Source: Deltaproteobacteria bacterium
GTDB taxonomy: Bacteria; Myxococcota; XYA12-FULL-58-9
Assembly: GCA_016218825.1 (NCBI GenBank)
Contig: JACRCV010000018.1
Coordinates: 1-47,351, forward strand
Direction of reading: 5' to 3'
DNA: 47,351 bases
The first letter of the stretch is position 1; every line of letters begins with the position of its first letter. This document shows, piece after piece, positions 1 through 47,181 of the stretch. The notes under the pieces were generated by a model. The model was not told where the DNA came from and searched no databases. It worked only from the letters and a program-made list of their open reading frames with translations. A program made the translations under genes and the position numbers.

Positions 1-208
1 CGCCAGCGGGCGTCTCCCAACCTCGCCGTTCCGAATTCCTCGACCGCCCAGCCGTGTCCAGTTTCTTCGCCCATCCCGATGGCAAGATCCAAAAACGGTG
101 TGGATTCAAGAGGCTGCATCAACTGAGATCAATGGTGAGCCGAGTGGGGGCGAGGGGAACGAAACCCGGGTGGGGCGGGGATGACGATCGCTTCCGCGGC
201 GGCGCGGT
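1..208. other. Left-edge noncoding stretch
   Basis: No convincing gene is visible in the first 208 bases. The stretch lies downstream of the stop codon of the minus-strand gene that ends at 209. It is slightly less GC-rich than the coding regions. A short plus-strand reading frame starting at 54 runs into the 3' end of that gene and has no recognisable features. The end of a gene lying outside the window cannot be excluded. Confidence 0.5.
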
Positions 209-2719
209 CTACTGCTTGCTCTTGTCGCCCGGCAGCGCCGCGTCCAACAGGACGCGATTGATCGGCCCCCAGATGTAGGTGGCAAACGGATTCGCGACCT
301 TCTCGGTGTCGGCGACCGTCGCCTTCCAGTCGCCGCCGTTGAGCACGAACCGCGTCGCGCCGTACGTGAACGTGAACACCAGGTCCGGCAGGCCGGTGAC
401 GATCCCCTCGCCCGCCTGCATCAGCGCGTCGCCGGCCTTCTTCACCGCCGCCATGTCGCCGCGCTTCAGCCCTTCGGCGTTGTCATAGAGCACCTTGGCG
501 GCGAGCAGCCCCATCACCACCGGCCCGGCCGCCTTGCCGCCGACCGCCAAGGCCTTGGCCAGCTTCGGGTTGTTCGCCAGGTAGCCCGCGAAATAGGCCG
601 CAAACCTCTCGGTCTTGAGCTTGTCCGTCAGCCAGGGCGGCAGCTCGGTCTTGAGCTCGAAGCGCCCGATCTTCATGCCGCGCGCCTTCGCCGCCGGCCC
701 TCGGCTGGAGACGTCGTCGAGATCGTTCAAGAGCTCGGCCGCCGGGCGCTTGTTGATCACCAGCTCACGCGCGACGTTGTTGGCGGTGCCGACGTTGTAG
801 CGCTGCACGAACGCCCGCAGCGCCCTGTCGTTCCTCAACACCACGAGCTCCTCGCCACGGTACTCGATGGTGATCGCGGTGCCCTTCTTCAAGAGCTCGG
901 TGGCCTTGGCGCCGCTCACCACCTTCAGCCCCGAGGCCTTGAGGTCGGCCTTGAGCTTGGTCAGCTGTTCGACGATCGTGCCGTCGGCCCTGACCTGCGT
1001 CACCTTGCCCTCGCGGAAGTTCGGCGACTTGGCCTCGTCCTGGTAGCCGATGTCGTGGGTGCGGCGGAAGCGGCTCGGATCCTGGCCGGCGGCGCGCGCT
1101 TGCGCCTCGAGGTTCTTGACGGTGTCGGCGTTGCCGTGGGTGTCGAAGCCGCTCTTGCCCTCGTCGACCCACACCGCGTGGTAGTCGCGGCCCAGATCCT
1201 GTTGCAGCGCCTCGAGGCGCCGCAGGTCCTCGCGCAGATCGGCGAGCTTCTTCTTGCCCTGGAGGCTGGTGTCGCCGGCGAGCGCCTTGGCTTCGCCGTC
1301 GAGCCGGCTCACGGTCTTCGACAGCGACGCCGGGTTGAAGTCGCCGTCGCCGGTGAACAACGCCACGCCCTGCCCGGTCTTGGTGTTGACGACGCTGGTG
1401 CGGCCGACGCTCGGCCCGTGCCCGGTCGACGGGTTGGCGCTGGCCTTGACGAGAAAGTCCCCGAGCGCTTGCTCGCGCACGAAGCGCAGGTTCTTGGGCG
1501 CCTTGACGCCGAGCTTCTGCACGATGTCGCGCTCGACCTCGGCCGAGCAGACGATCGTCGTCGGCAGCTTCTGCTGCAGGACGCGCTCCTTGAAGGCGCG
1601 CAGGTCGAAGTGATCGCCGTGCGCGTGCGACACCGCGTAGACCTCGACGTTGTCGAGCACCTCGGGACCGAACTCGTAGCCGACCTTGTGCAGCGCGCCC
1701 GCGGCCGACCGCATCTCCATGACCCCGGAGGTCGTCAACGCCGCCTCGCTGCCGGCCGAGGCGTCGCCGATCACCCGATAGGCGAACTGGCTGTCCGGCG
1801 CCAAGAACGACTTCGTCGCGCCGACGTGCGGTCGCGAGCGGACCCCGGAGAGCGACAGGGTCGAGAGCTTCTTGCCCCCGGCGAGGCTCACGTCGGTCTG
1901 CGGGCCTAGCGTCCGGCGATCGAAGAGCTTGTCGTAGAGCCCCTTGCCGCCCCAGCCGTCCGCGACCGTGCTGCCCTTGGCCTGCCCCCAGAAGTGCTTC
2001 GCATGGACGTCGAATTGGCGGGCGAGATCGTCGTTGGCGAACAACAACTGCATCCGCGCCGGCGAGCCGGTGTAGGCCTCCGGGAGCCTGCCGCCCTGCG
2101 ACAGCGCGAAGTACTTCTTCGACTCGCGGACGATCATCGGATCGAGATGGTCGAGCTCGCGGGCGTTCTTGAAGTACCAAGCGTCGGGCGCGCTCTTGCC
2201 GGTCGCCGCCAGGGCGTCGCTCACGCCCTTGGAGAAGTCGCCGCTGCCGACGAGCTTGCCTTCCTTGGTGAAGAAGAACTCGGCGACGCTCGCGGGTTGT
2301 TTGGCGTTCGGGGTGTAGGCCTCGACGCGAAAGCCGTTCGCGGTCGGGATGAGGTCGGCCTTCTGGGCGCCCGAGGTGATGGTCACCGTCTCGCCCTTGC
2401 TGAGCTTGTTGAACAGCGCCACGGTCGTCGCGTTGCGCAACACGTCGGAGACCGGATCGAGGGGCCGCTCGCCCCTCTCGCCCGCCGCCGCGACCACCAT
2501 CACCCCCGGCCCCGATAGCGCCCCGGTCGTGGCCGGACCGTCCTTCACGCCGTTGTGCTTCGCCCACGCTTGCCCCGGAGCGTTCGCGGCGTCCGGGGTC
2601 GGCGCGATCCGACGGCAATCGACGCTCGGGCCGAGGACGACCTTCGACGTCGGGCTGCCACCGGCGGCGTCCGGGGCGATCGAGGTCGGGTGCGACGGCA
2701 GCGGCTTGATCTCGGTCAT
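209..2719 (-). CDS. Large metallo-beta-lactamase-fold protein, function unknown
   Basis: An 836-residue protein. The metal-binding signature HAHGDH is at residues 365-370, followed by a TGDGD segment that fits the later metal-ligand Asp of the metallo-beta-lactamase fold, so a hydrolase of this superfamily is likely. Residues 1-130 are low-complexity and then weakly conserved. The C-terminal ~100 residues contain an Ala/Gly-rich hydrophobic helix (around residues 735-755) that could insert in a membrane. There is no N-terminal signal peptide. The start has GAGG 7 nt upstream. The gene lies 48 nt downstream of the peptidoglycan-binding protein on the same strand, so an operon is likely. Residues 10-16 read HPTSIAP; a near-identical HPTSVAP occurs in the protein at 6161-8116. 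Substrate unknown; an exported effector or enzyme is one possibility. Confidence 0.85.
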   Translation of the reverse strand: MTEIKPLPSHPTSIAPDAAGGSPTSKVVLGPSVDCRRIAPTPDAANAPGQAWAKHNGVKDGPATTGALSGPGVMVVAAAGERGERPLDPVSDVLRNATTVALFNKLSKGETVTITSGAQKADLIPTANGFRVEAYTPNAKQPASVAEFFFTKEGKLVGSGDFSKGVSDALAATGKSAPDAWYFKNARELDHLDPMIVRESKKYFALSQGGRLPEAYTGSPARMQLLFANDDLARQFDVHAKHFWGQAKGSTVADGWGGKGLYDKLFDRRTLGPQTDVSLAGGKKLSTLSLSGVRSRPHVGATKSFLAPDSQFAYRVIGDASAGSEAALTTSGVMEMRSAAGALHKVGYEFGPEVLDNVEVYAVSHAHGDHFDLRAFKERVLQQKLPTTIVCSAEVERDIVQKLGVKAPKNLRFVREQALGDFLVKASANPSTGHGPSVGRTSVVNTKTGQGVALFTGDGDFNPASLSKTVSRLDGEAKALAGDTSLQGKKKLADLREDLRRLEALQQDLGRDYHAVWVDEGKSGFDTHGNADTVKNLEAQARAAGQDPSRFRRTHDIGYQDEAKSPNFREGKVTQVRADGTIVEQLTKLKADLKASGLKVVSGAKATELLKKGTAITIEYRGEELVVLRNDRALRAFVQRYNVGTANNVARELVINKRPAAELLNDLDDVSSRGPAAKARGMKIGRFELKTELPPWLTDKLKTERFAAYFAGYLANNPKLAKALAVGGKAAGPVVMGLLAAKVLYDNAEGLKRGDMAAVKKAGDALMQAGEGIVTGLPDLVFTFTYGATRFVLNGGDWKATVADTEKVANPFATYIWGPINRVLLDAALPGDKSKQ

Positions 2720-32313: not shown

Positions 32314-33894
32314 TCAGCGCGGCAGTCCGCCGAAAGGCCCGCGGGCGCCGATCAAGAGCGGCAACAAGGCCGTCAACCCGCCGCCCTGGAGCTCGCCGCC
32401 CATCAGCTGCAGCACCGGCCCCATCAGCTCCCGCAGTCCCTCGATCTGCCGCAACATCCCGAGGCCGTGTTTCTTGATGCCGTGCACCATGAACATGCTC
32501 TCGCGGTAGTCGGCGCCGAACGCCGGTTTCGGCAGCAGGTGGTCGGGGACCGACGGCAAGAGCGACGCGAGCAGCCGGTTGGCGCCGAGCGCCTTGAGCG
32601 CCGGATGCACGCGGATCATCTCGCCCCAGTAGTGCATCCCGAGCTCGTGGTCGCCGCTCTCCTTGGCGACCGCGGCGATCGGCGCCGCCGGATTCTGGAA
32701 CTCGGTGTTGAGGCCGGAGCGCATCTCCGGCACGAACACCCGCACCACCGGGATGGTGAGCGGCGGATAGCTCTTGTCGATCACGACGACGGTGTAGCCC
32801 TTGGCCTCGAGGGCGCCGACGATCAGCTCGATCTCCTCTTTGATGTCGGATCGCGCCACCGACGGCACGCGGCCGACCGGGATCACCCCGGTGGTGTCGC
32901 GCAGGACCTCGGGGTTGTAGAGCGCGTGGAAGCCGAGGTTGCCGATCGGCAGCAGGGCCTGCAGGCCTTTGAAGTCGGCGCCGAAGCGCTCCTGGACCTT
33001 GCACATCCACGAGAAGCCCTCGAAGTACTCGGAGAGCGCACGGATGATCGCCTTCTCCGGATCCGGGTGGCAACCGTGACCGACGCCCTCGTAGGTCAAG
33101 AGACCCTCGTCGGCCGGCCGCGTGCCGCGCACCACCATCGACGGCACCCCGAGGTCCGAGGTCATGTCGACCACCGACCAGCGGATGCCGTTGTTCTCTC
33201 CGGTCTGCAGCACCTCGCGAAGCAGCGGGTGTGTGAGGCTCGTCAGATCGATCGACGCCCCGAGCCGCTTCTCCATGTGCAACCGAAAGATCGTCTCGCG
33301 CTCGATCACCTCGCACAGGCCCTGGAGCACGGCCTCCTCGAACCGGTTGCCGGACGCCAGGCCGTTCGAGGAGTACAGCATGTTGTGCCAGTTGAGCGGG
33401 TAGTAGTACGGCGAGCCGTCCACGAGCCGCGTGCCCAAGACCCAGCGCAGCCGCGTCCGCAGCAGATCCCTTTCGTAGGGCTCACGCTCGGTGAGAAACG
33501 GGAAGTTGCTGAGGAAGTAGGAGGCCGGCACGGTCTCGACGCCGGTCGCGACGATCTCGGCGTGGGTCGCCAGACGATACCCGGGCGCGTGCTCGTAGTC
33601 GAAGTGGATCCAGGAGTAGCGCTCGGCGAGCTCCATGATGGCGCTCGCCTGCGCCTGCTCCGCGGTGAGCCCCTTGCCGCTGGCGTTCAACGTGCCGCCG
33701 GCGCTGGTGTAGGAGAAGGCGCCGTCGATCGGCCCGGCGCGGGCTTCGAGCTTGACGCCGCCCAGGTCCGTCATCTGGCCGAGCTTCGCGGCGGCGTTCG
33801 CCACCGTGGTCGCGGGATCGACCGCCTTGTCCTGGTCGTAGGCGTAGCCCTTACGGACGCTCTCGAGGTGCAACTGTGGCGCTACCACGGTCAT
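32314..33894 (-). CDS. YcaO-domain protein
   Basis: A 526-residue YcaO-fold enzyme; the family phosphorylates amide backbones with ATP to make azolines, thioamides or amidines. ATP-binding motifs are present: SAIMELAER at 84-92 (S-x3-E-x2-ER) and NGLASGN ... QGLCEVIERE ending near 200. The third block RALSEYFEGF lacks the usual final Q-x-R. The C-terminus GPFGGLPR has no PxPxP, as in non-azoline YcaOs. No TfuA, E1-like or dehydrogenase partner is adjacent. It is last in the operon, 29 nt after the M1 aminopeptidase stop, with GAGGAG before the ATG. The substrate could be a ribosomal peptide or a protein; unknown. Confidence 0.9.
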   Translation of the reverse strand: MTVVAPQLHLESVRKGYAYDQDKAVDPATTVANAAAKLGQMTDLGGVKLEARAGPIDGAFSYTSAGGTLNASGKGLTAEQAQASAIMELAERYSWIHFDYEHAPGYRLATHAEIVATGVETVPASYFLSNFPFLTEREPYERDLLRTRLRWVLGTRLVDGSPYYYPLNWHNMLYSSNGLASGNRFEEAVLQGLCEVIERETIFRLHMEKRLGASIDLTSLTHPLLREVLQTGENNGIRWSVVDMTSDLGVPSMVVRGTRPADEGLLTYEGVGHGCHPDPEKAIIRALSEYFEGFSWMCKVQERFGADFKGLQALLPIGNLGFHALYNPEVLRDTTGVIPVGRVPSVARSDIKEEIELIVGALEAKGYTVVVIDKSYPPLTIPVVRVFVPEMRSGLNTEFQNPAAPIAAVAKESGDHELGMHYWGEMIRVHPALKALGANRLLASLLPSVPDHLLPKPAFGADYRESMFMVHGIKKHGLGMLRQIEGLRELMGPVLQLMGGELQGGGLTALLPLLIGARGPFGGLPR

Positions 33895-33923
33895 GTCGGG
33901 CTCCTCGGAGCCGTGGCCGGCAA

Positions 33924-35696
33924 TCAACCGGAGAGCTGCTTCTCGAGGCCGCCACGGGCGATCGGGTGGTAACGATCCTTGTTGGCCGCGAAGATCTCCT
34001 TCGCGAGCGCCCGGGTCTGTTGCCCCTCCGCGAGGGCCTTGTAGATCGGCTTCAGGAACTTCATCCGGCCGACGTGACCCAAGAACGCGGCGAGCTTCGC
34101 GAACGCCGGGGTGTAGTTGGCGCGCGCCGCCATCACCAGCCACTTGCACAAGATCTCGGCGTTCCCGGAGTCGTTGAAGTGGAACGTCTGATCGAGCCAG
34201 CGACAATCGTCCTCGCCGACCTTCTTCGGCAGCGCCCCGAGGTAGACCAGCCACTCGTCCACCGACCATTGTTTCGCGGCTTTGGGATCCGGCCGGGCGC
34301 CGGTCGCCCAAGCGGCCGCGAGCGCCTGGAGCTCTTCGAGGCGCTTGGACGAAAACGCCGGGGCGTTCGCCGGGATCCCGGGCTCGTACACCCAATCGCG
34401 GGCCCCGATCTTCTGGGCGACGCCGGGCAGCGCCTCGTCCATGAAGGTCAGGAACTCCTCGGTGGTGATCGAGGTGAACGCGAAGCGGTCGGTGTAGGCG
34501 CGGACAAAGGCGTCGATCTTCTTCCGCCCGACCGTAGCCTCCAAGAGGGCGACGAACAGAAAGCCTTTCTCGTAAGGCACCTGGGAGTAGACGTCGTCCG
34601 GATCGATGCCGGCCAGGTCGGTCTTGAGCTTGGTGAACGGCGAGGTCATGCCGAAGCGCTCCAGATCGGCGTTCAAGCTGTCCCGGCCGATGGCCGCGGC
34701 GAGCGCCAGCGCCTCTTCGCCCTGCAGCGCCTCGTGGATACGACGCTCGGCCCAAACGGTGAAGCCTTCGTTGAGCCAGAAGTCGTTCATCGTCGCGTTG
34801 GTGACCAGGTTGCCGGTCCACGAGTGGGCGAGCTCGTGCGCCAGCACGTTCACCAGCGACTTGTCGCCGGCGATCAAGGTCGGGGTCAGGAAGGTCAGGC
34901 GCGGGTTCTCCATGCCGCCGTAAGGGAACGCCGGCGGCATCACCAAGAAGTCGTAGCGCTCCCAGCGATAGGGTCCGAAGAGCTTCTCCGCCGCGAGCAA
35001 CATCTCGTTGACGCCGGCGAACTCGCGGGCCGCGGCGCCCAGGGTCTCGGGCTCGGCGTAGACCCTCGAGCGCGGGCCGAGATCCTGGCTCGCGATGTTG
35101 CCGACCGCGAGCGCCAACAGGTACCCGGGGATCGGCTGCGGCATGTCGAAGCGGTAGGCCACGGTCTGGTCGCTGCCGCCCGCCTCCTTCTTGCCGGGCG
35201 CCGCCGACATCACCGCGACCAGACCCGCCGGGACGGTCAGGCGCGCCTGGTAGGCGAAGCGCACCATCGGGCTGTCCTGGAGCGGCAACAGCGACCGGGC
35301 GTGGTGCGGCTGACACTGGCTGAACAGGTACGGCGCCTTGCCGCCGGCGGTGTGTTGCGGCTCGAGCCACTGCAACGCCGAGGCCGAGGGCGAGGTGGCG
35401 TAGTGGACCGTGACCTTGGTCGTCGGCGCCGCGAGCTGCAACCGCAGGCGGGTGCCCAGCACCGGGTCCGGCGTGCCGCTCTCGAACGCGACCGCAGCGC
35501 CGCGGTCGTCTTTGACGCCGTCGATCGTCAGCGCGCGACTGTCCAAGTCGAGCGGGCCGCCGACCTTGGCGGCGAAGGTCAAGGTGGCGCTGCCCTTGAG
35601 CTGCCTGTTCTCGAAGTCAACCGCGAGGTCGAGCTCGACCTTGGCCACCCGGCCCTGGCTGGTGTCGGTGTACGAATGTGGATCTTTGGTCGCCAC
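33924..35696 (-). CDS. M1 aminopeptidase, leukotriene-A4-hydrolase type
   Basis: A 590-residue zinc aminopeptidase. GGMEN is at 260-264. The zinc site is HELAH (287-291) with E310 in NEGFT. Y375 in VPYEKG is the catalytic tyrosine. QCQPHHARSLLP (about 127-138) and the helical C-terminal domain ending YHPIARGGLEKQL mark the LTA4-hydrolase subgroup. No signal peptide is present, so it is likely cytoplasmic. The start is a GTG at 35696 with GGAGG 5 nt upstream; no ATG precedes it, and 77 nt separate it from the GHKL-like gene. It lies directly before the YcaO gene. Confidence 0.93.
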   Translation of the reverse strand: MATKDPHSYTDTSQGRVAKVELDLAVDFENRQLKGSATLTFAAKVGGPLDLDSRALTIDGVKDDRGAAVAFESGTPDPVLGTRLRLQLAAPTTKVTVHYATSPSASALQWLEPQHTAGGKAPYLFSQCQPHHARSLLPLQDSPMVRFAYQARLTVPAGLVAVMSAAPGKKEAGGSDQTVAYRFDMPQPIPGYLLALAVGNIASQDLGPRSRVYAEPETLGAAAREFAGVNEMLLAAEKLFGPYRWERYDFLVMPPAFPYGGMENPRLTFLTPTLIAGDKSLVNVLAHELAHSWTGNLVTNATMNDFWLNEGFTVWAERRIHEALQGEEALALAAAIGRDSLNADLERFGMTSPFTKLKTDLAGIDPDDVYSQVPYEKGFLFVALLEATVGRKKIDAFVRAYTDRFAFTSITTEEFLTFMDEALPGVAQKIGARDWVYEPGIPANAPAFSSKRLEELQALAAAWATGARPDPKAAKQWSVDEWLVYLGALPKKVGEDDCRWLDQTFHFNDSGNAEILCKWLVMAARANYTPAFAKLAAFLGHVGRMKFLKPIYKALAEGQQTRALAKEIFAANKDRYHPIARGGLEKQLSG

Positions 35697-35773
35697 TGCT
35701 GCCTCCAGCGTCGCCGGCTCCCGCCCGCCGGCAACCCTATCGAGTTTGGCGCCGGTTGCAAGCCTGAACTGCG

Positions 35774-37366
35774 TCAGGGAGTCGGGCCGGGCGTGAACAG
35801 CGCCGCCTGCAGCTCGGTCTTGCCGCCGCCGAAGCCGTCGTGGCCGCCGAAGAGGACCGCCATCAGCGGGTAGAGCATCCCGGGATCGGCCTCGAGGGCG
35901 CGCGCCATGCGCTGCAGCTGCGGGTGGCGTCGCGGCACCAGCAGCACGAAACCGCTCCCGAAGCGGCGCGGCGCGAGCGGCAGGCGGCCGTGCTCCACCA
36001 ACGCCACCCGCGTCAGCCGCGACAGCCCCGGGGTCAAGGTCGGCAGCACGTAGCGCCCCGAGGTGAGCAGCGCCTCGATGGCCCGGATGACGCCGCGCTC
36101 GGCGTCGGCCCAGAAGCTCTCGTGAATCGGACGGACGCCCATCAGCCCGGCGACGAACCCGCGCCCGTACTGTCGCACCCGGGAGGCTCCGGCCGCGACC
36201 TGCGACCACACCGCCGCGGCCAGGCGGCGCCGGTAACCGGCAGGCGGCGGCTCGACCGTCAAGCCGAACGCGCGCAACAGGAACTCGCGCTCGTAGCCGT
36301 CCAACACCAACGTCCGCCGGCCGCCGTCCTTGCCGTCGGCGCCGCGCCCCGGAGGCTCGACCGCCCAGAGGACGCCGTCGGTGCAAAGGGAGCGGACCGT
36401 CTGCAGATCGACTTGCGCGCCGGAATCGGTGCGAAACAGCGGCACCCCGGCGAGGAGCTCCAGCCGCCCCGCCTGCAGCGCGTAGCGCAGCAGCAGGCGG
36501 CGGGCGCAGTCCTGATCCGCGACGCTCATCGACCCCAGCAGGGCGGCCAGTCGGACGTACAACGTGTCGCGCACCTCGCGCACCAGGTCGTGGACGACGC
36601 GGAGGTCGACGGCCGGGGCTCGCGCCCGGGCCTTGTCGCGCACCACCGCGAGGTGCACCGCGCCACGCCGCGACGCGGTGTAGACCTCCTTGGCCACGAC
36701 CTCGCCGACGACCACGATGCTGCGGCTCAGGTCAGCATGCCGGGGCAACCCTACCCGGCACGACAGGCGCGGGGTCTCGACGGTCAGCTGCACCAGACAG
36801 TCCGGCAGCGCCGGCCCGCGGCTCGTCGCCCTACCGTCCAAGAAGACCGGGACACTGGCGTAGGCGAGCTTCTCTCGCAGCGCCCGGCGGAGGACGCGCC
36901 GCGACCCGGAGCGAGCGACGGTCAGCACCAGCCCCGGCGACGTCGGCCGGCCGATCACCGCCCCCGGCGCCCTGCCCCTGCAGAAGACGAGGGTCATCGC
37001 TCGATCCGAATCGCTCACACCGAGCGACGCCGTGGGCGCGGCCAAAAGCGCCAGCAGGCCGACGCCGCAGCTCACCTCGAGCTCGACCAGCGCCCGGTGA
37101 CGCGCCGCGACCGCGCAACCGGGATCCGCGAGCACCGCGACCGCTTCGAACGCCCCGGACGGCATCGCGCCGCCCGGGGCCGCGACCCGGACCCGTCGCC
37201 GCCCGAGGTCCACCTGCACCGCGATCGCACCGCTCTGGATCGCAAACCGACAGACCTCGGCCACGGTCGCCACCTCGTCCTCGAGCTGCCGGCCGCAGAG
37301 CTTCTGCACCTCGGCCTCGACGTCGATGCTGAGCAGATCCGCGGCGGTCACCCGGGGCGCGGTCAT
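35774..37366 (-). CDS. Degenerate GHKL-like protein, relative of its upstream neighbour
   Basis: A 530-residue protein. Residues 20-110 parallel the GHKL ATPase domain of the upstream gene: EVCRFAIQSGA (37-47) matches ELAQNARDAKA but lacks the Mg-binding Asn and the Asp, APGGA (63-67) matches DDGHGM without Asp, and SCGVGLLALL (99-108) matches GCFGVGFWSVL. ATP binding is therefore probably lost. The C-terminus (RRFGSGFVLLVPRRHPQLQRMARALEADP) resembles the C-terminal domain of the same neighbour (KRYVAVHWRHPEVQDRLALLASDP). It may be a regulatory partner. Its ATG overlaps the upstream stop (ATGA), so the two are translationally coupled. No transmembrane helix is evident. Confidence 0.85.
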   Translation of the reverse strand: MTAPRVTAADLLSIDVEAEVQKLCGRQLEDEVATVAEVCRFAIQSGAIAVQVDLGRRRVRVAAPGGAMPSGAFEAVAVLADPGCAVAARHRALVELEVSCGVGLLALLAAPTASLGVSDSDRAMTLVFCRGRAPGAVIGRPTSPGLVLTVARSGSRRVLRRALREKLAYASVPVFLDGRATSRGPALPDCLVQLTVETPRLSCRVGLPRHADLSRSIVVVGEVVAKEVYTASRRGAVHLAVVRDKARARAPAVDLRVVHDLVREVRDTLYVRLAALLGSMSVADQDCARRLLLRYALQAGRLELLAGVPLFRTDSGAQVDLQTVRSLCTDGVLWAVEPPGRGADGKDGGRRTLVLDGYEREFLLRAFGLTVEPPPAGYRRRLAAAVWSQVAAGASRVRQYGRGFVAGLMGVRPIHESFWADAERGVIRAIEALLTSGRYVLPTLTPGLSRLTRVALVEHGRLPLAPRRFGSGFVLLVPRRHPQLQRMARALEADPGMLYPLMAVLFGGHDGFGGGKTELQAALFTPGPTP

Positions 37367-40287
37367 CGCCCCCCCCCGAACACCGTCCAGGCGGCCCGCG
37401 CCCGCAGGCGCTCGGCGCCGACCGCCAAGAGCGGCGAGCGGTCCAGGAGCCAGTCGAGAAAGACGAACAGCCCACGCGCCGGATCGGACGCCAACAGCGC
37501 CAAGCGGTCCTGGACCTCGGGGTGGCGCCAATGCACCGCGACGTAGCGTTTGGGCCACGGCGCGCCGGCGGGCAAACGGACGCCGCTCAGGTCGACGTCC
37601 AAGGTCGCGACGGTCTCGAGCCCGGCACACGCCAGGCACCGGACCCCGGGGACCACGTCACGAAGCAGCGCGTTCACCGGCGCCAGCGCGAGGTCGGCAC
37701 GCTCGGCGTCGGCGGCAGTGCGCGCCGCGGGCCGCACCCGATCGATGCCGTCGAGATCGATCGCGCGCCCGAGCACGTCCATCACCTCTTTGAACGCCAC
37801 GTGCGCCGCGTCCAGCACCGGGGTCTTGCGGCGCGCCGCCAACAGCGCCAACTCGGAGTGCCGACGCGACAGGTAGAGCGTCGCCGCCGCGGCGCGGGCC
37901 ATGGTGTCGGCGAGCGACATCGGCGGCCCAAGGAGGGTCGGCAACGCCGGCCGCTGCCAGACATCGGCGATCTTGGACCACACCTCCGGATGCAACACCG
38001 CGTCCTTCAACAACCGGGCGAGCGCGCTCTCCGCCTCGGTCTGACCACCGCGAGCGACGAAGCGTCCGCGCCAAGCCCCGCGCCGCCACCAGGAGAACAA
38101 CGCCGCCACCGCGACGAGACCGCAGAAGACCCCGAGCCGGAGCGGCCAAGCCTTGCCGGTCTCCGCCTCCAGCGCGAGCACCGCCGCCGGTGAGGCGACC
38201 GCAGGCGTCGGTTGCGGCGGCGCCTCGGGCGGCGGTGCCGGGGCGGCCGGCGCCGGCACTGCAGCAGACGCGGCCCGCAGATCTCCCTGGGCGGCGCTCT
38301 GGGAGGACAGTGGGGGGGCGGCCGTAGCCGGGGGCAGCGGCGCGGCGGGCGGCGGCGCCCCGGTCGCATCCACGGCGTGCCAACCGGCGTCGTAGTACTC
38401 GGTCCAGGCGTGCAGCTGCGGCCGGGCGTGGCCGTCTTTGGCGGCGATCCCCAGCACCATGCGGGCCGGGATCCCGGCGCTCTGCAACAACAGCACGTTG
38501 ACGCCGTTCTTGACGTCGCAGTCTCCGGCGCCGGCTTCACTGACCCGGCTCAGCCAATCGGCGTTGTCGGTGGCGTAGCGCGCCGCCATCTGCGGCGAGA
38601 CGTCGTAGGTCAGAAACCGGCGCACGAAGCGCGTCAGGCGCCCGGCACGTTGCCGCCGCGAGCTGCCGGCGCTCTCGGCGACGGCGCGCCGGAGATCCTC
38701 GGGCAGCTGCACCGCCGGCGGAACGACGCGCGGCTCCGGCCCGGCGACGAACGCGCCGGTCACGTACTCGAGGACGCCGGCGTCGCCCTTCGGCAGCTGC
38801 ACCAGCGGCTCGTCGAAGTCGTTGATCTGAAGCCCGTCGACCATCTTGCCGTCGAACCGTACCGAGGCGCGCACCAAGCGATGGCCCGTCGGCACCGGCA
38901 CGACCAACGGCTCGGCGCCGGGCACCACGGTGAGCCACACCCGGACGCAGTGGCGGTCGCACCGATGGGCGGGATACGCCCGGGCCGGGCCGGAGACCCC
39001 ACGGACGAAGCCGTGGACGCGGTCGTAGCGCGACAAGACCAGCGCCGCGAACAGGATCTCCTTCGGGCCATCGTAGGTCAGATCCCAGGCGCCGACCCGC
39101 GGATCCGGCACCTCGACCGTCGCGCCCTCGTAGCCGTTCAGGTTGGTGTACGGCAACAGCTCCGACACCGGAGCCGAGCCGCCCCCGAAGTCGACCGGCG
39201 ACGAGTCACCGCCACCGGGCAGCGCATCGGCGGCGGCGGGCGACGGCGGCCGCGGGTACCCCACCACCACGACGGCGACGGCCATCGCCACCGCCAACCC
39301 GGCGGCGACACCCGCGGCGACGCGCAGCGCCGCGGCGCGAAACGCGGCCGAGAACCTCTTGACGGTTTCCCACGGGGTCTCGGGGCGTGCGGCGCGCGAC
39401 AGCTCGCCCACCAGCCGCGCGAGCTGCGAGCGCGCGACGCGCGTCAGGCGACGGAGCGCTTGACTCGCGACCGGGCGGGAGCGCGACATCACCAGGTCGA
39501 GACGATTGCTGTTGAGGATGATCGCCGGCGCCAACCCCCCGGCCAGTCGCTGGTACACCGGCACCGACGGCGAGGCCTCCAGCTCCTCCAACACCGTGGC
39601 GGTCATCACCAGGAGCCCGGAGGCGTAGAGCTCGACCTTCGGGAGCTCGGCGAGCCCCACCGCGCCCTCGGCGTCCCGGGTCCGAAACGACAGCGACGCG
39701 ACGCCCGGGGCGACGAGCTCCTCGTTGACGCACTTGCCGTTGACCCGCACCCACAGCGGCTCGAGCGGCCGGCCGGCGCGACGCAGGTAACGACAATGCC
39801 GCCGCAACGCCAAGCCGACGTCGGCGGCGAATCGCTTGCCGTCCCCGGCGACGGGCCGCCGCAGGGTCACCCGGGTGCCCACGGTCTTCATCCGGCACGG
39901 GATGACCTCCACGTGATCCAGCGACGCGGACAGCCGCACGCCCCACGGCGCGCCGCGGCTCCGGGACTCGACCTCGATCAACGTCGGGTTGAAGCGCAGC
40001 ACCGACCAGAAGCCGACCCCGAAGCAGCCGGCGGCGTCCGGCTCGTTCTCCTTGCTCGACGCGTACAGCCGGAACAGGTAGGCGCGGGCGTGCGCGAAGT
40101 CCATGCCGTGGCCGTCGTCCTCGAAGCTCAGCCATTCCTCACCGGCCTCTACCCCGGCCAACACCGAGATCTGGCCGGCCTTGGCGTCGCGCGCGTTCTG
40201 CGCCAGCTCGCGGAGAAACACCCACGGGTCCTGCCCGTAGCGGAGCGACTCCTGAACGGCGCGCGCCTTGAAGTCGGTCCTGGCCAT
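37363..40287 (-). CDS. GHKL ATPase fused to periplasmic transglutaminase
   Basis: A 974-residue protein with a rare architecture. Residues 1-120 are an Hsp90/MORC-type GHKL ATPase: ELAQNARDA (E27, N31, D34), DDGHGM (57-62) and GCFGVGF (87-93), all intact. A transmembrane helix follows (about 319-343). Residues 550-645 are a transglutaminase-like domain with the triad C589 (GDCD), H625 (HAWTEYY) and D639 (DATG). A Pro/Ala linker (645-705) leads to a second helix (about 714-733) and a 240-residue C-terminal domain shared with the downstream gene. With two helices, the ATPase and C-terminal domains should be cytoplasmic and the transglutaminase periplasmic. TGGAG lies 5 nt before the ATG. It is first in a four-gene operon. 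Confidence 0.92.
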   Translation of the reverse strand: MARTDFKARAVQESLRYGQDPWVFLRELAQNARDAKAGQISVLAGVEAGEEWLSFEDDGHGMDFAHARAYLFRLYASSKENEPDAAGCFGVGFWSVLRFNPTLIEVESRSRGAPWGVRLSASLDHVEVIPCRMKTVGTRVTLRRPVAGDGKRFAADVGLALRRHCRYLRRAGRPLEPLWVRVNGKCVNEELVAPGVASLSFRTRDAEGAVGLAELPKVELYASGLLVMTATVLEELEASPSVPVYQRLAGGLAPAIILNSNRLDLVMSRSRPVASQALRRLTRVARSQLARLVGELSRAARPETPWETVKRFSAAFRAAALRVAAGVAAGLAVAMAVAVVVVGYPRPPSPAAADALPGGGDSSPVDFGGGSAPVSELLPYTNLNGYEGATVEVPDPRVGAWDLTYDGPKEILFAALVLSRYDRVHGFVRGVSGPARAYPAHRCDRHCVRVWLTVVPGAEPLVVPVPTGHRLVRASVRFDGKMVDGLQINDFDEPLVQLPKGDAGVLEYVTGAFVAGPEPRVVPPAVQLPEDLRRAVAESAGSSRRQRAGRLTRFVRRFLTYDVSPQMAARYATDNADWLSRVSEAGAGDCDVKNGVNVLLLQSAGIPARMVLGIAAKDGHARPQLHAWTEYYDAGWHAVDATGAPPPAAPLPPATAAPPLSSQSAAQGDLRAASAAVPAPAAPAPPPEAPPQPTPAVASPAAVLALEAETGKAWPLRLGVFCGLVAVAALFSWWRRGAWRGRFVARGGQTEAESALARLLKDAVLHPEVWSKIADVWQRPALPTLLGPPMSLADTMARAAAATLYLSRRHSELALLAARRKTPVLDAAHVAFKEVMDVLGRAIDLDGIDRVRPAARTAADAERADLALAPVNALLRDVVPGVRCLACAGLETVATLDVDLSGVRLPAGAPWPKRYVAVHWRHPEVQDRLALLASDPARGLFVFLDWLLDRSPLLAVGAERLRARAAWTVFGGGR

Positions 40288-40393: not shown

Positions 40394-41128
40394 TCAGATG
40401 GCCGGCAGGGCGCCGTACTGAGCAGTGAGGCGGCGATAGCGCTCGGTGATCTTCGCGGCATAGAAGTCGACGACGTCGCTCGGCAGGCGGCCGTGCTGGC
40501 GCAAGATGTAGCGCGTCGCCTTCGGACCGCGGTTGTAGGCGGTCAGCGCCACCTCGAGACGGGGGAACTCGTGCCGCAGGTGATCGAAGTAGCGCGCCCC
40601 GAGCCGGACGTTCAAGACCGGATCGAAGCTGTGGCTGTCGGGCCAGTCGAGGTTGGTCTCGGCGGCGGTCCACAGCGCGGTCTCCGGCATGATCTGCATC
40701 AGGCCTTCGGCGCCGCGCGGCGAGATCGCGAGGTGGTCGTAGTAGCTCTCGACGTGGATGATCGCCAGAAACAGCAGCGGGTCGAAGCCCAAGCGCGTCG
40801 CTTCGTCACACAGCGCCTGCGCCACCCGCAGGCCGTCCCGCTCGCCCAAGGTCCGGGCGTGCTGCAGGAGCTCGGCGGCGACCGCGTCCTGGCGATTGAG
40901 CACCACGACCGGTCGCGGCAGGACCACCTCGAGCCCGGCGGCGAACTCGCCCGGATCTCGCGGCGCCCACGCGCCCACTCGGGAGCGCGCCCGCAACAGC
41001 CCGGCGACCTCGTCGGCGACCGCGTGCGGCGTCGACGCGACCGCCAGAGCGCCGACCGCCAGCGCCAGCCCGGCCCTCGCCCAAAACGGCAAGAACCGCC
41101 CGTCGCCGCTCGTTGCCCGTCGCGTCAT
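40394..41128 (-). CDS. Secreted lytic transglycosylase (Slt type)
   Basis: A 244-residue protein with a twin-basic N-terminus and signal peptide (MTRRATSGDGR, then FWARAGLALAVGALAVAS). The catalytic domain (about 100-240) has HVESYYD (catalytic Glu), SPRGAEGLMQIMPETA, RYFDHLRHEF and LTAYNRGP, the signature of Slt70-like glycan-strand lyases. GGGAG lies 5-6 nt before the ATG at 41128; an ATG at 41173 would put 15 residues before the twin-Arg. It lies 107 nt upstream of the GHKL-transglutaminase gene, which has its own promoter. The 238 nt upstream (41129-41366) hold no gene I can identify. Confidence 0.92.
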   Translation of the reverse strand: MTRRATSGDGRFLPFWARAGLALAVGALAVASTPHAVADEVAGLLRARSRVGAWAPRDPGEFAAGLEVVLPRPVVVLNRQDAVAAELLQHARTLGERDGLRVAQALCDEATRLGFDPLLFLAIIHVESYYDHLAISPRGAEGLMQIMPETALWTAAETNLDWPDSHSFDPVLNVRLGARYFDHLRHEFPRLEVALTAYNRGPKATRYILRQHGRLPSDVVDFYAAKITERYRRLTAQYGALPAI

Positions 41129-41366
41129 CCCGCTCTCCCTACCTGCTTCGGAAACGACCTTGTCGCTGCCCATGATATTGGACGCCCCGTGCTCTACACG
41201 CTTCACCCACGGGGTGGGATACAAACCCACGCGCCCATACCACACCGATCCGACATCCGACAGGGATCACGAACCAGGAGGAAAACAGACCCACGTACAG
41301 AACGTTACCGGGACTGGTCGAGGGGGTGTCCTATTGGCGCAGCACTAGCGGCCCCCACAGCGAGCG

Positions 41367-42745: not shown

Positions 42746-44224
42746 TCAAGAACAACGAGGCGCGCCGGTCTGGCGGCTTCGGTCGACACCTCGGCGCCGG
42801 GCACGGCAGCGAACGGTCGCCGCCACGACCCCGAGGGCAGCGGTTGCGACCGGCGTGCCGAGCCCCGGGGCGTGACAGGCACAGCCACCGACCAGGACAT
42901 CGTGGTCCGCCGCCGCGCCCGTCGCGTCACCGCCGGCCGGTGCTTCTCCGCCCGGGCCCGCGTCACCCGGCGGTGGTCCGCCGTCCGCGCCGCCGTCGCC
43001 GCGCCTGCCGTCCGCCGCCGGCCCGCTGTCGATGCTCCAGGCGTTGTGGGTGCAGATCCCGACCGCCCCGGTCCCGCCGCAGTACAGCGAAGCGCACTCG
43101 AGGCTGTGGGTACACGGTTGACCGTCGGCCGCCGGGCCGGGCGGCCGACAGAGCCCGGGGTTGCCGGCGCCGGCGCCGCCATGGCAGATCGTGCCGGGCA
43201 CGGCGCTGCAGTGGGAGTCTTGCACGCAGGTTCGCCGACAGCGGAACTTCCCGTCCAGGTCCCGCACGCAGTACCAGTTGGTCCCACCGCAGTCGGCGTC
43301 GAGCACACAGTCTGCGTAGCCGACGTGACACAGCGCGCCGCGCGTGGCCATCACGTCTTGGCGACAGTAGGCCGCCGCCGGACAATTGGGACTGGAGACG
43401 TTGCAGCTCTGGGTGCAGAACCCCGGCGCGGTGCCGGGCGCCTGGTCGAGGCCGGTGTAGCACGCGCCGCTCGAGCAGTCGGCGCTCGCGAAACACGCAC
43501 CGCCGAAGCCCACGGCACCGGTGACGCAATCGGGCGGCACACAATGGGTGCGCACGTCGGTGCCGCCGAAGTAGCCCCCCATGAACAACGGGCAGTCACC
43601 GTCCGTGCTGCACAGGGTGGCCGCGGCCGGATACAGGTAACAGACGCCGCGGATGTCGTCGTCGCTCAGGGTGCGGTCGAGGGTGAGCCCCTCGCTGTAC
43701 CCCCAGTACATCGTCGCCTCGGGAGACGGGCCGTGCGCCAGACCCACGACGTGCCCGAGCTCGTGGGTGAGGACGCTCAGGACGTCGTAGGCCTCGGGGT
43801 CGCCGTTCGTGGCCCAGACGAAGTCCTGCTCGTTCACGGTGATGTCGGCGTCGAGCCACTGCTGGGGCGACACCCCGGTGTCGCGGCGTTGCTCGGTGAG
43901 CGCCACGACCCCGGCGGGGCCGGTCCAAGAAGTCAGAAAGGAGATCCGGTTGACGCCGTCGTTCGTCGAGCCGCCGGTCGACGACAGCCCGGCGTCCACG
44001 AAGCCAAAGGCGGCGCACGCCGGCTGCCCCCACGCCGTGAGGGCGGCGCGGATCGCGACCAGATCGCTGCCGTCAGTGATGCCGCCGGCCCCGTCCGCTT
44101 GGATCGAGATCGACACCGCAGCGGACGGCCACTTGATGGGCGCCAAGGTCAATGGATCGCGGATCACCGCAAAGCCGGCACACGGGAGGGCCAGCCCGAT
44201 CAGGCACAGGCGCGAGGCGCTCAC
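42746..44224 (-). CDS. Secreted matrixin metalloprotease with MYXO-CTERM-like tail
   Basis: A 492-residue protein with an N-terminal signal (RLCLIGLALPCAGFAV). The zinc site HELGHVVGLAH is at 154-164 (HExxHxxGxxH) with a Met-turn near M172 (TMYWGY). Residues 205-400 are a Cys-rich region with about 28 cysteines in EGF/'CxxDxxC'-like spacing. The C-terminus has an Asp/Gly/Pro linker, then GGCACHAPG, a hydrophobic run (VATAALGVVAATV) and RCRARRRG, matching the MYXO-CTERM sorting pattern, with 13 extra residues after it. It starts at GTG 44224, overlapping the previous stop (GTGA), so the two are coupled. Confidence 0.93.
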   Translation of the reverse strand: MSASRLCLIGLALPCAGFAVIRDPLTLAPIKWPSAAVSISIQADGAGGITDGSDLVAIRAALTAWGQPACAAFGFVDAGLSSTGGSTNDGVNRISFLTSWTGPAGVVALTEQRRDTGVSPQQWLDADITVNEQDFVWATNGDPEAYDVLSVLTHELGHVVGLAHGPSPEATMYWGYSEGLTLDRTLSDDDIRGVCYLYPAAATLCSTDGDCPLFMGGYFGGTDVRTHCVPPDCVTGAVGFGGACFASADCSSGACYTGLDQAPGTAPGFCTQSCNVSSPNCPAAAYCRQDVMATRGALCHVGYADCVLDADCGGTNWYCVRDLDGKFRCRRTCVQDSHCSAVPGTICHGGAGAGNPGLCRPPGPAADGQPCTHSLECASLYCGGTGAVGICTHNAWSIDSGPAADGRRGDGGADGGPPPGDAGPGGEAPAGGDATGAAADHDVLVGGCACHAPGLGTPVATAALGVVAATVRCRARRRGVDRSRQTGAPRCS

Positions 44225-44745
44225 CGCCTGCGCCTCGCGATCGCGTCGTTCACTGCATCGAGCCCGAGGGTCCGGGGCCCCACGGCCGGCCGCAGCGCAC
44301 CGCCCGGGCCGGCGCTTTGCACCTCGATCTGTTGGCTGAGCCGATCGCCGTCCAGACGATAGAAGCCGAGACTCAACCCGACGATGTAGCGCCGCCGGTC
44401 CTTGGCGAGCGCGGTGATCAGCAGCACCCGGTCCCCGGGGGTGAGGCGGACGGTGCCGGCGACGTCGACCACGATGTCACCGTCTTTGCCGCCGGGTTGG
44501 CTGATGACGAGCGGCGTCGCCCACGTACCGAGCAGCACCTGGTCGACCGCGATCTCGGTCTCGGTGAGCACCCGGCCGGCGTCACGAACGCCGCGCGACG
44601 CACCGACGGTGCCGGTCACGATCAGGTCGGCGTGCGCGACCACCTCGTCGAGAGTCCACGCCGCGATCACCGTCGCCTGCGCCGCCGCGGCGCCCATAAC
44701 GACCCCGACCCCGACCCCGACCCCGAGCGCGACAGCAAGGCGCAC
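44221..44745 (-). CDS. Secreted protein paired with the matrixin
   Basis: A 174-residue protein. The signal peptide contains a (Gly-Val)4 run encoded by a hexanucleotide repeat and ends AAAAQA. The mature part (TLDEVVAHADLIVTGTVGASRG ... TETEIAVDQVLLG ... VVDVAGTVRLTPGDRVLLI) resembles small beta-barrel domains often encoded beside matrixins in myxobacteria, possibly an inhibitor or chaperone; this is inferred. The GTG at 44745 is the best in-frame start found. The stop overlaps the matrixin GTG. Confidence 0.72.
   Translation of the reverse strand: MRLAVALGVGVGVGVVMGAAAAQATVIAAWTLDEVVAHADLIVTGTVGASRGVRDAGRVLTETEIAVDQVLLGTWATPLVISQPGGKDGDIVVDVAGTVRLTPGDRVLLITALAKDRRRYIVGLSLGFYRLDGDRLSQQIEVQSAGPGGALRPAVGPRTLGLDAVNDAIARRRR
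44701..44726. repeat. Hexanucleotide repeat in a signal-peptide coding region
   Basis: (GACCCC)4GA on the plus strand encodes alternating Gly-Val in the signal peptide of the minus-strand gene. Gain or loss of units would change signal length by two residues without shifting the frame. Confidence 0.8.
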
Positions 44746-44765
44746 CTCATGACTGTGCCGTGGCC

Positions 44766-44793
44766 GCGGTTGGCGCGCAAGGAAACCAACCGC
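44766..44793. promoter_or_regulatory. Inverted repeat in a divergent promoter
   Basis: GCGGTTGG and CCAACCGC are perfect eight-base arms around a 12-nt spacer, located between the divergent starts 44745 and 44863. It is a good candidate operator for either the protease pair or the OPT transporter. Confidence 0.45.
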
Positions 44794-44862
44794 AAACCGG
44801 CGAACCCCATTGATCGCCCCCTCTGCCCCCCGTACTCTCGCGCCCGCATTTTGGAGGACATC

Positions 44863-47046
44863 ATGGAAACAGGCCAATCGAAGCGCACTCTGCCGGAGAA
44901 CGCCTACCGCAAGCTCGCGGGCGGCGAGGTCTATCGCAGCGTCGTGGCGCCGGACGATCGGCGCGCCGAGGTCACACCCTGGGCCGTCGGCATGGCGTTG
45001 CTCTTGGTCTTCATCTTCTCGGCGGCGTGCATCTACATGGCGCTCAGGGCCGGCAGCGGCATCGAGGCCGCGATCCCGATCGCCATCCTCGCGATCTTCT
45101 TCGGCAAGGCGCGCCAGGCGAAGAGCACCATCCTCGAGAACGTCATCGTCCAGTCGATCGGCCAGGCCTCCGGGGTCGTCGCCGCCGGCGCCGCGTTCAC
45201 CATCCCGGCGCTCTACATCAACGGCCTGCAGCCGGTGTGGTGGCAGATCTTCTTGGCCTGCGTGGTCGGCGGCGTCTTGGGCACCGTGCTCATCATCCCG
45301 CTCCGGCGCTACTTCGTCGCCGAGCGTCACGGCGATCTGCCGTTCCCCGAGGCCACCGCGACCACCGAGATCCTGGTCGCCGGCGAGTCGACCGGCAAGA
45401 CCAGCGGTCGAGTGCTCTTGATCTCCTTCGGCCTCGGCGCCCTCTACGACTTCCTGGTCGAGGCGGTGCACGCCTGGAACCCGAACATCAGCACCAAGGC
45501 CTTGTTCGGCACCCTCGGCGAGAAGATGTACGCGGTGCGCTCCGAGATCAAAATCAACGCGCTCGCGGCGTTGTTCGGCCTGGGCTACATCGTCGGCGTG
45601 CGCTACGCGGCGATCATCGCCGCCGGCAGCGTGCTGGCCTACGCGGTGTTGGTGCCGCTGATCTACGTGGTCGGCGCCCAGGTGACCGATCTGGAGCTCT
45701 ACGGCCGCCACGTCAACGTCGCCGCGATGAGCGCCGCCGAGATCTTCAACACCTTCGTCAAGCCGGTGAGCATCGGCGCGATCGCCGTCAGCGGCCTCAT
45801 CGGCATCATCCGGATGAGCAAGATCATCGTTCACTCGGTGACCCTGGGCTTCAAGGGCCTGTCCAAGGCCGGCGTCGACGCCGTCGTGCGCCTGCGCACC
45901 GACACCGACATGAAGCCGCGCACCGTGGTCCTGATCCAGCTCGCCGCGGCGCTGGCGATGGCGGTGTTGTTCTTCATCGTCACCGTGAGCTACGTCGGGC
46001 CGGCCGGCCAAGGCTACTCCGGGGGCCAGTCGCTGTTGTTCGCCACGGTCGGCGCGGTGGTCGGCTTCGGGCTGGCGTTCTTGTTCACCCCGGTCGCCGC
46101 CGAGGCGATCGCGATCGTCGGCACCAACCCGGTCTCCGGGATGACGATGATCACCTTGATCCTCGCGTCCTTGGTGCTCACCGCGCTCGGGCTGTCGGGC
46201 GACGCCGGCATCTTCATCGCCATCGTCGTCGGCTGCGCGGTCTGCACCGCGCTCTCCACCGCCGGGGCGCTGATCTCGGACTTCAAGATCGGCTACTGGA
46301 TCGGCTCGACCCCGGCACAGCAACAGCGCTGGAAGTTCCTCGGCATCGCGGTGGCCTCCCTCACCTGCGCCTTCGTCGTGCCGCTGATGGACTCGAGCTA
46401 CCACTTCCTGGTGCACGTGAACCCCTTGGACCTCACGAGCCCCTTGACCTCGAACACCGACGTCCTGCCGGCGCCGCAGGCCAACATGCTCGCCGCCATC
46501 GTCCGCGGCATGATGACCGCCGGCGGCCAGCCCTACCTGCTCTACGCGCTCGGCGGCCTGGTGGCGTTCATGCTCTACATGGCGGGGGTGCCGCCGCTCG
46601 CCTTCAGCCTCGGGATGTACCTGCCGATCTCGATCACCTTGGCGCAGCTGTTGGGCGCGGTCGTCTCCTTTGTCGTCGGCAAGACCGGCGGCGACGAGGA
46701 GGTCCGCAAGGTCCGCTCCGAGCAAGGCGTGCTCATCGCCTCGGGGATGATGGCCGGCGCCGCGATCATCGGCATCGTCACCGCGATCCTGCGCCTCGAT
46801 TGGACCGGCTACCTGATCCGCTACATCAGTATTGGCGTCGACTACGTGGTGCAACAAGGACCGACCGGGTCGTTCTTGAGCGAAGCGCCCCGGGACGCGG
46901 CGCTCGGCCCCACCTGGTACGAAGGCTTCACCGGCCAGGGCCTGGGCTTCCTGATGTACGTCGTGCTCGCGGTCCTCGTGTTCGTGCTCGCCGCCTGGGG
47001 CGCCGCGGCGGAGCTCAAAGAACGCGGCCGGCCGCAGAAGAGCTGA
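44863..47046 (+). CDS. OPT-family oligopeptide transporter
   Basis: A 727-residue inner-membrane protein with about 15-16 hydrophobic helices. It has the OPT landmarks: LRAGSGIEAAIPIAILAI, VAAGAAFTIPALYI, DLPFPEATATTEIL and GNPVSGM-like GTNPVSGMTM (quoted in part). OPT transporters take up small peptides or metal chelates by proton coupling. The short cytoplasmic N-terminus begins METGQSKRTLPENAYRKL. GGAGGA lies 5 nt before the ATG. It is divergent from the matrixin operon; an external protease and a peptide importer would work together, but coregulation is inferred. Confidence 0.92.
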   Translation: METGQSKRTLPENAYRKLAGGEVYRSVVAPDDRRAEVTPWAVGMALLLVFIFSAACIYMALRAGSGIEAAIPIAILAIFFGKARQAKSTILENVIVQSIGQASGVVAAGAAFTIPALYINGLQPVWWQIFLACVVGGVLGTVLIIPLRRYFVAERHGDLPFPEATATTEILVAGESTGKTSGRVLLISFGLGALYDFLVEAVHAWNPNISTKALFGTLGEKMYAVRSEIKINALAALFGLGYIVGVRYAAIIAAGSVLAYAVLVPLIYVVGAQVTDLELYGRHVNVAAMSAAEIFNTFVKPVSIGAIAVSGLIGIIRMSKIIVHSVTLGFKGLSKAGVDAVVRLRTDTDMKPRTVVLIQLAAALAMAVLFFIVTVSYVGPAGQGYSGGQSLLFATVGAVVGFGLAFLFTPVAAEAIAIVGTNPVSGMTMITLILASLVLTALGLSGDAGIFIAIVVGCAVCTALSTAGALISDFKIGYWIGSTPAQQQRWKFLGIAVASLTCAFVVPLMDSSYHFLVHVNPLDLTSPLTSNTDVLPAPQANMLAAIVRGMMTAGGQPYLLYALGGLVAFMLYMAGVPPLAFSLGMYLPISITLAQLLGAVVSFVVGKTGGDEEVRKVRSEQGVLIASGMMAGAAIIGIVTAILRLDWTGYLIRYISIGVDYVVQQGPTGSFLSEAPRDAALGPTWYEGFTGQGLGFLMYVVLAVLVFVLAAWGAAAELKERGRPQKS

Positions 47047-47181
47047 GGCGCGCGGTCCGCCGCGCCTGCGTGTTGTCTGCCCGCCCGGGTCCATGATACG
47101 CGACGGCGGGTTCGAGCTCTCGCTCGTTCGTCCAGCCTAGCTGGATCATGAGCGACGGTCTGCGGAGGTCGAGGTAAGAGA

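Follow-up and report, generated by a model that had tools for sequence, protein, structure and literature searches.

Gene A of contig JACRCV010000018.1, whose complete stretch of 47,351 nucleotides is referred to here as the window, encodes a 974-aa protein (37363..40287, minus strand) in which an HSP90-like GHKL ATPase, a transmembrane helix, a TgpA-like transglutaminase domain, another transmembrane helix and a second HSP90-like part follow one another. This architecture, which defines a rare bacterial protein family, is real, conserved and unusual. The adjacent gene B (35774..37366, minus strand) encodes a 530-aa soluble HSP90-like pseudo-ATPase partner, and the stop codon of A overlaps the start codon of B in an ATGA (37363..37366, minus strand). 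The architecture, residue conservation and homology of the two proteins, the pseudo-ATPase state of B and the constant pairing were computed. We propose, with about even confidence, that A and B form a two-gene membrane machine in which an A/B or A/A ATP clamp controls a periplasmic enzyme across the membrane.

An ATPase domain and a transglutaminase domain in one protein

Residues 1-312 of A (39352..40287, minus strand, as are all parts of the gene) comprise the GHKL ATP-binding domain and the start of an HSP90-like middle region, and carry E27, N31, D57-x-G59-x-G61, G87-x2-G90-x-G92 and R269. They are followed by transmembrane helix 1 (residues 323-341, 39265..39321), a predicted periplasmic TgpA-like domain with a transglutaminase core (residues 381-647, 38347..39147; C590, H626 and D640), transmembrane helix 2 (residues 713-731, 38095..38151) and a second cytosolic part (residues 738-974, 37366..38076), which is homologous to the C-terminal half of B. 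In Pfam searches, A matches HATPase_c_3 (PF13589; E 2.4e-9, 37.8 bits against a gathering score of 25) and Transglut_core (PF01841; E 2.5e-12, 47.5 bits against a gathering score of 23), and both families are matched by all 16 full-length A members, the window protein included. A chance or frame artefact was ruled out, because both matches exceed the curated cut-offs and are held in 16/16 members.

The alignment of A (A3) covers 16 of the 20 loci examined, which come from different genomes of several phyla and include the window. It omits three loci in which A is incomplete at a contig end (L063, L013 and L024), as well as L026 (L026:2359-5042, on a contig labelled Eisenbacteria), where the coding sequence of A is divided between two overlapping frames, through an assembly error or because the gene is broken. 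Loci L015, L023 and L061 are duplicates of L010, L011 and L025, respectively, and L027, matched in the GHKL part only, was not counted as A. An N-terminal extension of ~170 residues was trimmed off the L058 row, and the rows of L016 and L025 start at the match, not at a called start codon. The remaining rows share just 28-40% identity with the window protein. Identical in 16/16 rows are E27, N31, D34, D57, D58, G59, G61, K79, G87, G90, G92 and T138, together with R269 and the triad C590-H626-D640, so that all 16 ATPase and triad positions checked are kept in every full-length member. Thus, the ATPase and triad residues of A are real and under strong constraint. The sequence-only reading had claimed intact GHKL boxes and an intact Cys-His-Asp triad in one protein, which agrees with both Pfam matches and with the 16/16 conservation; a loss of triad or ATP residues across homologues, which it had named as contrary evidence, was looked for, and all 16 members keep all of them. 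That reading did not include the HSP90-like nature of the ATPase, the relationship to TgpA or the co-occurring partner gene B, and the mechanism is incomplete if B is left out.

Hydrophobic helices flank the enzyme, one on each side, in all 16 A rows (helix 1 being present in 16/16), with 328-445 residues between them. Summed over these rows, Lys and Arg in the 20 residues next to helix 1 number 68 before and 38 after the helix, and those next to helix 2 number 45 before and 80 after it. The charge argument rests on the summed counts and not on individual rows, which scatter: the counts are reversed at helix 1 in L010 and L020 and at helix 2 in L060, and are tied at helix 1 in L058 and at helix 2 in L016 and L017. 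This positive-inside pattern suggests that the N-terminus is in, the enzyme out and the C-terminus in, and the two-sided topology is best argued from the observation that the parts flanking the insert form one continuous soluble body in B. The ATPase and transglutaminase domains of A are predicted to lie on opposite sides of the membrane, as proposed earlier, in agreement with both the charge pattern and the homology of the N- and C-terminal parts to the soluble partner. The single helix that had been placed between the two domains is present (residues 323-341), but the one-helix topology had to be corrected to two crossings, since a second helix (713-731) and a part of ~240 residues follow the enzyme. 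In the structure model of A, pLDDT falls below 50 at residues 342-379 and 646-714, making the linkers beside the enzyme long and predicted to be disordered.

A profile search of the PDB with the A family retrieved Pseudomonas aeruginosa TgpA as the best match (6G49, E 1.1e-7), followed by MORC2 and HtpG/HSP90; searching the PDB with the single sequence of A was uninformative. The TgpA match spans positions 67-312 of the 338-aa 6g49 chain, covering most of the periplasmic domain and extending beyond the core. In VIA comparisons, residues 381-647 of the A model matched TgpA 6g4h with Z 17.7 and rmsd 3.8 over 244 of 278 residues. TgpA (PA2873; 6G49/6G4H) resembles A in its inner-membrane location, in an outward-facing enzyme and in a periplasmic domain that matches by both profile and fold. 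However, A has no DUF3488 part, its HSP90-like ATPase body is split around the enzyme, and it has two helices, not six. TgpA_N/DUF3488 (PF11992) had no match in the 16 A rows at E 0.01; because this polytopic part is absent and the protein has two helices only, A was not filed under the TgpA family. The genome of the window also encodes a TgpA_N-domain protein (G000:C54, E 1.3e-17), to which A therefore seems an addition. According to PMC3507681, TgpA is an inner-membrane protein with six helices and a periplasmic region at 180-544, it is critical for viability, and it has transglutaminase activity in vitro. By analogy, the periplasmic domain of A probably acts on envelope material by amide transfer or cleavage. 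An envelope substrate is argued, weakly, from the location of TgpA and from a lytic transglycosylase (SLT) neighbour in three loci. In the window this SLT gene lies directly upstream of A (40394..41245, minus strand), as context and not as a proven part of the system; besides the window, only G001 and G004 have a related gene in this position. Other loci have different neighbours, which makes the SLT gene a weak clue to the substrate of A.

The AlphaFold model of A (monomer) has a mean pLDDT of 77.9 and a pTM of 0.54, and the 50 matches listed for it by Foldseek were HSP90-family chains, TRAP1 included. VIA aligned the model with full-length HSP90 chains at Z about 20, over ~390-470 residues across model positions 1..974 and with rmsd 8-12, suggesting that the domains of A match HSP90 and that their relative placement is loose; against the HSP90 N-M fragment 4ivg, the rmsd was 5.4 over 356 residues. 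As model comparisons, the full-length matches (rmsd 8-18) speak for the predicted fold and do not establish a closed clamp. E27, four residues before N31, is a catalytic Glu of the HSP90 type, and R269 lies in an S-R motif; both are invariant in A. R269 aligns with an Arg in the sister proteins A' (4/4) and B' (4/4) described below, which supports what we presume from the motif, that this residue is the equivalent of HSP90 Arg380. Against curated models, A scored 11.8 bits of 371 for HtpG (NF003555) and 27.7 of 455 for the HSP90 family (PRK14083), and no HSP90 Pfam model was among its listed matches at E up to 1. With scores far below the HtpG family cut-offs, A is HSP90-like, not HSP90, and its ATP domain is of the HSP90/MORC-like E-x3-N type, not histidine-kinase-like.

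The pseudo-ATPase partner and related gene pairs

The B alignment (A2) contains 15 of the 16 loci that have B, L060 being left out. The Mg-binding Asn31 of A is absent from all 15 members, Asp57 is kept in 3/15 and Gly61 in 2/15, and the scaffold glycine G59 is kept in 15/15. Judged by these positions, B is a pseudo-ATPase. Pfam searches with the B protein of the window (P0002) yielded nothing useful, with XPC-binding at 0.027 falling below its cut-off; among the 15 members at E up to 0.05, one protein reached HATPase_c_3, at 0.0042. PDB sequence searches with B returned nothing, so that B was placed by profile-profile and fold comparison only. The model of B (monomer, pLDDT 80.6) gave 50 listed Foldseek matches, all of which were HSP90-family chains (TRAP1/HSP90, best E 1e-14), and VIA likewise returned TRAP1/HSP90, with a best Z of 15.9.

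In hhalign comparisons, the N-terminal half of B aligned with the GHKL domain of A at E 6.9e-12 (best of eight column shuffles, 0.022), and its C-terminal half aligned with the post-helix part of A at E 1e-8 (best of eight column shuffles, 0.42). Once the alignment columns spanning helix 1 through helix 2 had been taken out of A, the rest aligned collinearly with B at E 1.6e-16, with six shuffles at or above 0.26. This alignment extends over residues 29-500 of 530 by default and over 17-528 with a looser end criterion. In view of this collinearity, the best reading of A is that of an HSP90-like protomer into which a helix-TgpA domain-helix unit has been inserted. Such an alignment can be read as the outcome of a duplication, with ATP binding lost from one copy and the membrane-crossing enzyme gained by the other.

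In 16 of the 20 loci, the gene immediately after A is a homologue of B, and three of the other four end at a contig edge within A. The fourth (L017, labelled Aminicenantes) has A and no B in the ~1.6 kb of contig that remains downstream, where two short ORFs (L017:3971-4605) look by eye like a toxin-antitoxin pair (PIN-like). Among 15 tabulated pairs, A and B overlap by 4 bases in 11 and by 8-10 bases in three. In L011 an ATGA is found at the stop codon of A, though the gene caller set the start of B later, and in L060, outside the tabulated pairs, the junction reads GTGA. Across 193 Myxococcota genomes, strong A matches (E <1e-85) and strong B matches (E <1e-89) were detected in exactly the same 13, including G001 and G041, where a contig break separates the two genes. 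The profiles were partly built from loci of some of these 13 genomes; the absence from the other genomes is independent of that. The distance matrices of A and B correlated with r 0.88 over 13 shared loci, a value obtained without a control gene and consistent with co-inheritance. Constant pairing and co-occurrence are no proof of physical contact between A and B.

Two further kinds of adjacent HSP90-like genes were found. One is an A'/B' pair of GHKL genes, carried by four members of a single Myxococcota family (genomes G008, G017, G023 and G029), in which both proteins are of the active type (L012:6059-10259, L065:1060-5180, L070:1141-5255 and L014:4938-8436), with an intact ATP site in 4/4 A' and 4/4 B' proteins. 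A' has a transmembrane hairpin and no transglutaminase. Judging by the extent of the alignment, its helix pair seems to follow the counterpart of the post-insert part of A rather than precede it, which would mean a separate capture of membrane helices. The three complete copies of B' terminate in a HELAH stretch, which is weakly WLM-like in the one copy scanned. In L012 and L065, the pair is followed by genes that resemble, by eye, NADH dehydrogenase subunits (shared clusters). The other kind joins a soluble active GHKL gene and a pseudo-GHKL gene of 1187-1556 aa (L069:7610-13848, L067:1552-7849, L068:6710-13050, L071:4813-10142 and L072:6733-12072). The N-terminus of these giant partners is homologous to B (E 3.9e-17), and the rest of them matched no Pfam family above cut-off. 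All these pairs share with A/B the adjacency of HSP90-like genes. They differ from it in that no transglutaminase is present in A', that the ATP site of B' is intact, and that the GHKL protein of the giant pairs bears no membrane enzyme. Pairing of an active with an altered HSP90-like protein thus seems to be general, with the transglutaminase-bearing pair as one specialised form, and the giant pairs possibly represent a larger family of paired machines. A/B would then belong, as one branch among others, to an undescribed and broader group of paired active/pseudo HSP90-like machines in bacteria.

Proposed transmembrane control and competing readings

Periplasmic enzymes have no ATP, and the known routes for powering or gating them from the cytosol are ABC transporters (FtsEX type), the proton motive force and AAA+ MoxR partners. 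In the mechanism that we propose, each cytosolic clamp arm of A would carry one enzyme domain on the periplasmic side, and A would pair with B, or with another A, in the manner of HSP90. ATP binding would close the clamp and move the helix pairs, so that the periplasmic active sites would be opened, oriented or brought together, and ATP hydrolysis would reset the clamp. B would make this cycle asymmetric and may carry a cytosolic input. The predicted disordered linkers beside the enzyme weaken the case for a rigid mechanical coupling, and long linkers of this kind favour proximity or pairing of the enzyme domains over a rigid lever. Control of the periplasm by cytosolic ATP is plausible: the idea is now better specified, and the coupling itself is what we infer. 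More tentative, and held at somewhat below even confidence, is the full scheme, according to which an HSP90-type clamp has turned into a transmembrane enzyme controller, a dead-ATPase B completes an obligate asymmetric clamp, cytosolic ATP switches envelope chemistry, and the pair is one branch of the wider paired active/pseudo machines.

Signalling could also run from the outside in, with the transglutaminase-fold domain sensing or processing a periplasmic ligand and setting the clamp, and with A and B acting on cytosolic clients. The receptor-like layout, with 328-445 periplasmic residues looped out between two helices, and the chaperone-like folds of B and the cytosolic part of A are in line with this scheme. 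We nevertheless consider it unlikely, since a triad invariant in 16/16 rows exceeds what a mere sensor needs and no neighbour gene except B is constant. It is also improbable that the fusion merely co-localises a membrane chaperone, made up of B and the cytosolic part of A, with a constitutive periplasmic enzyme and involves no ATP coupling. Such tethering would suit the long, predicted disordered linkers that flank the enzyme, the absence of an HSP90 part from the canonical TgpA and the presence of a TgpA_N-domain protein in the window's genome (G000:C54); yet the insertion point is identical across all 16 A rows, and A and B have remained a pair on contigs labelled Myxococcota, Chrysiogenales, Fermentibacteria and Eisenbacteria.

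Regarding the partner, B may be an adaptor or inhibitor that forms no HSP90-type heterodimer, for example by binding only the C-terminal part of A. The loss of its nucleotide motifs except the scaffold glycines means that B need not cycle, but it retains the GHKL, middle and C-terminal fold and aligns with A over nearly its full length, leaving this alternative as a doubtful though genuine contender. A histidine-kinase-like signalling protein, with a phosphorylating GHKL domain, would be expected to place a periplasmic domain between two helices as A does, and A has a weak HATPase_c similarity (E 0.077). However, no HisKA/DHp match was found in A (Pfam, E up to 1), and the ATP domain is N-terminal and of the HSP90/MORC E-x3-N type with a middle-region Arg; we rejected this assignment as very improbable.

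The clamp mechanism proposed for A and B has partial counterparts in known systems. The closest functional analogue is the MoxR AAA+-DUF58-transglutaminase cluster, in which a cytosolic ATPase is genetically linked to a membrane transglutaminase; this gene order is given in PMC6803598, citing Wong and Houry 2012. There the ATPase works in trans and its fold is different, whereas in A a GHKL/HSP90-like clamp is part of the same polypeptide. No match to AAA or DUF58 was found among nine window proteins scanned around A. We know of no HSP90-like fold in the role of an ATPase-linked membrane transglutaminase, and A/B can be viewed as a variant of such systems built on this fold. HSP90, HtpG and TRAP1 share with A the GHKL N domain with E-x3-N, the GT motif and the middle-region S-R, and their N and M domains match the model; A differs from them in having a membrane-inserted enzyme within its body and a pseudo-ATPase partner. 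Heterodimers of the MutL-alpha type consist of GHKL-fold subunits unequal in ATP use (PMC12733681), which likens them to A/B. MutL-alpha is soluble, functions in DNA repair and has two ATPase subunits, whereas in A/B the B subunit is dead and A crosses the membrane. The architecture of A was not found described in the open-licence papers searched: PMC3710099, the one paper to contain both transglutaminase and GHKL, mentions them in separate proteins in its accessible text, and that of PMC7159879 contains no mention of GHKL.

If the proposed mechanism is true, building an HSP90-like clamp around an enzyme that crosses the membrane would add a separate way to power or gate periplasmic enzymes, and HSP90-type machines would reach beyond the folding of clients into direct mechanics across the membrane. 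Since A is constantly paired with a pseudo-ATPase, what a dead GHKL subunit contributes can be tested in a pair that occurs naturally. The TgpA domain, on which the viability of Pseudomonas critically depends, gains a relative that may have its control encoded in cis.

Distribution and gene neighbourhood

Beyond Myxococcota, A loci were found on contigs labelled Aminicenantes, Chrysiogenales, Fermentibacteria, Eisenbacteria, Thermoanaerobaculales and uncultured proteobacterium; as these contigs are metagenome bins, the taxon labels may err. A scan of viral contigs revealed no relative. PADLOC gave only a partial TmtA match for A (~80 residues of the GHKL domain, 8.1e-9, in a model of 1486 positions), nothing for B, and nothing in three of the five giant sister partners, which were scanned. 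With no viral relative and only this partial match, a phage or defence role of A/B was rejected.

In the window, A and B are followed on the same strand by genes for a YcaO-domain protein and a leukotriene-A4-hydrolase-like M1 peptidase (32314-35700, minus strand); each of the two formed a cluster of one, with no relatives seen beside A in the other loci. A 957-aa ORF further away (44221-47094, minus strand) has no Pfam match above cut-off, and a 909-aa ORF opposite to it scored better in a simple gene caller. In three other loci, a protein of 490-527 aa with hydrophobic segments and no Pfam match is encoded directly upstream of A (L011:3538-5010, L020:1664-3208 and L059:6537-8117), and it may be a third component there.
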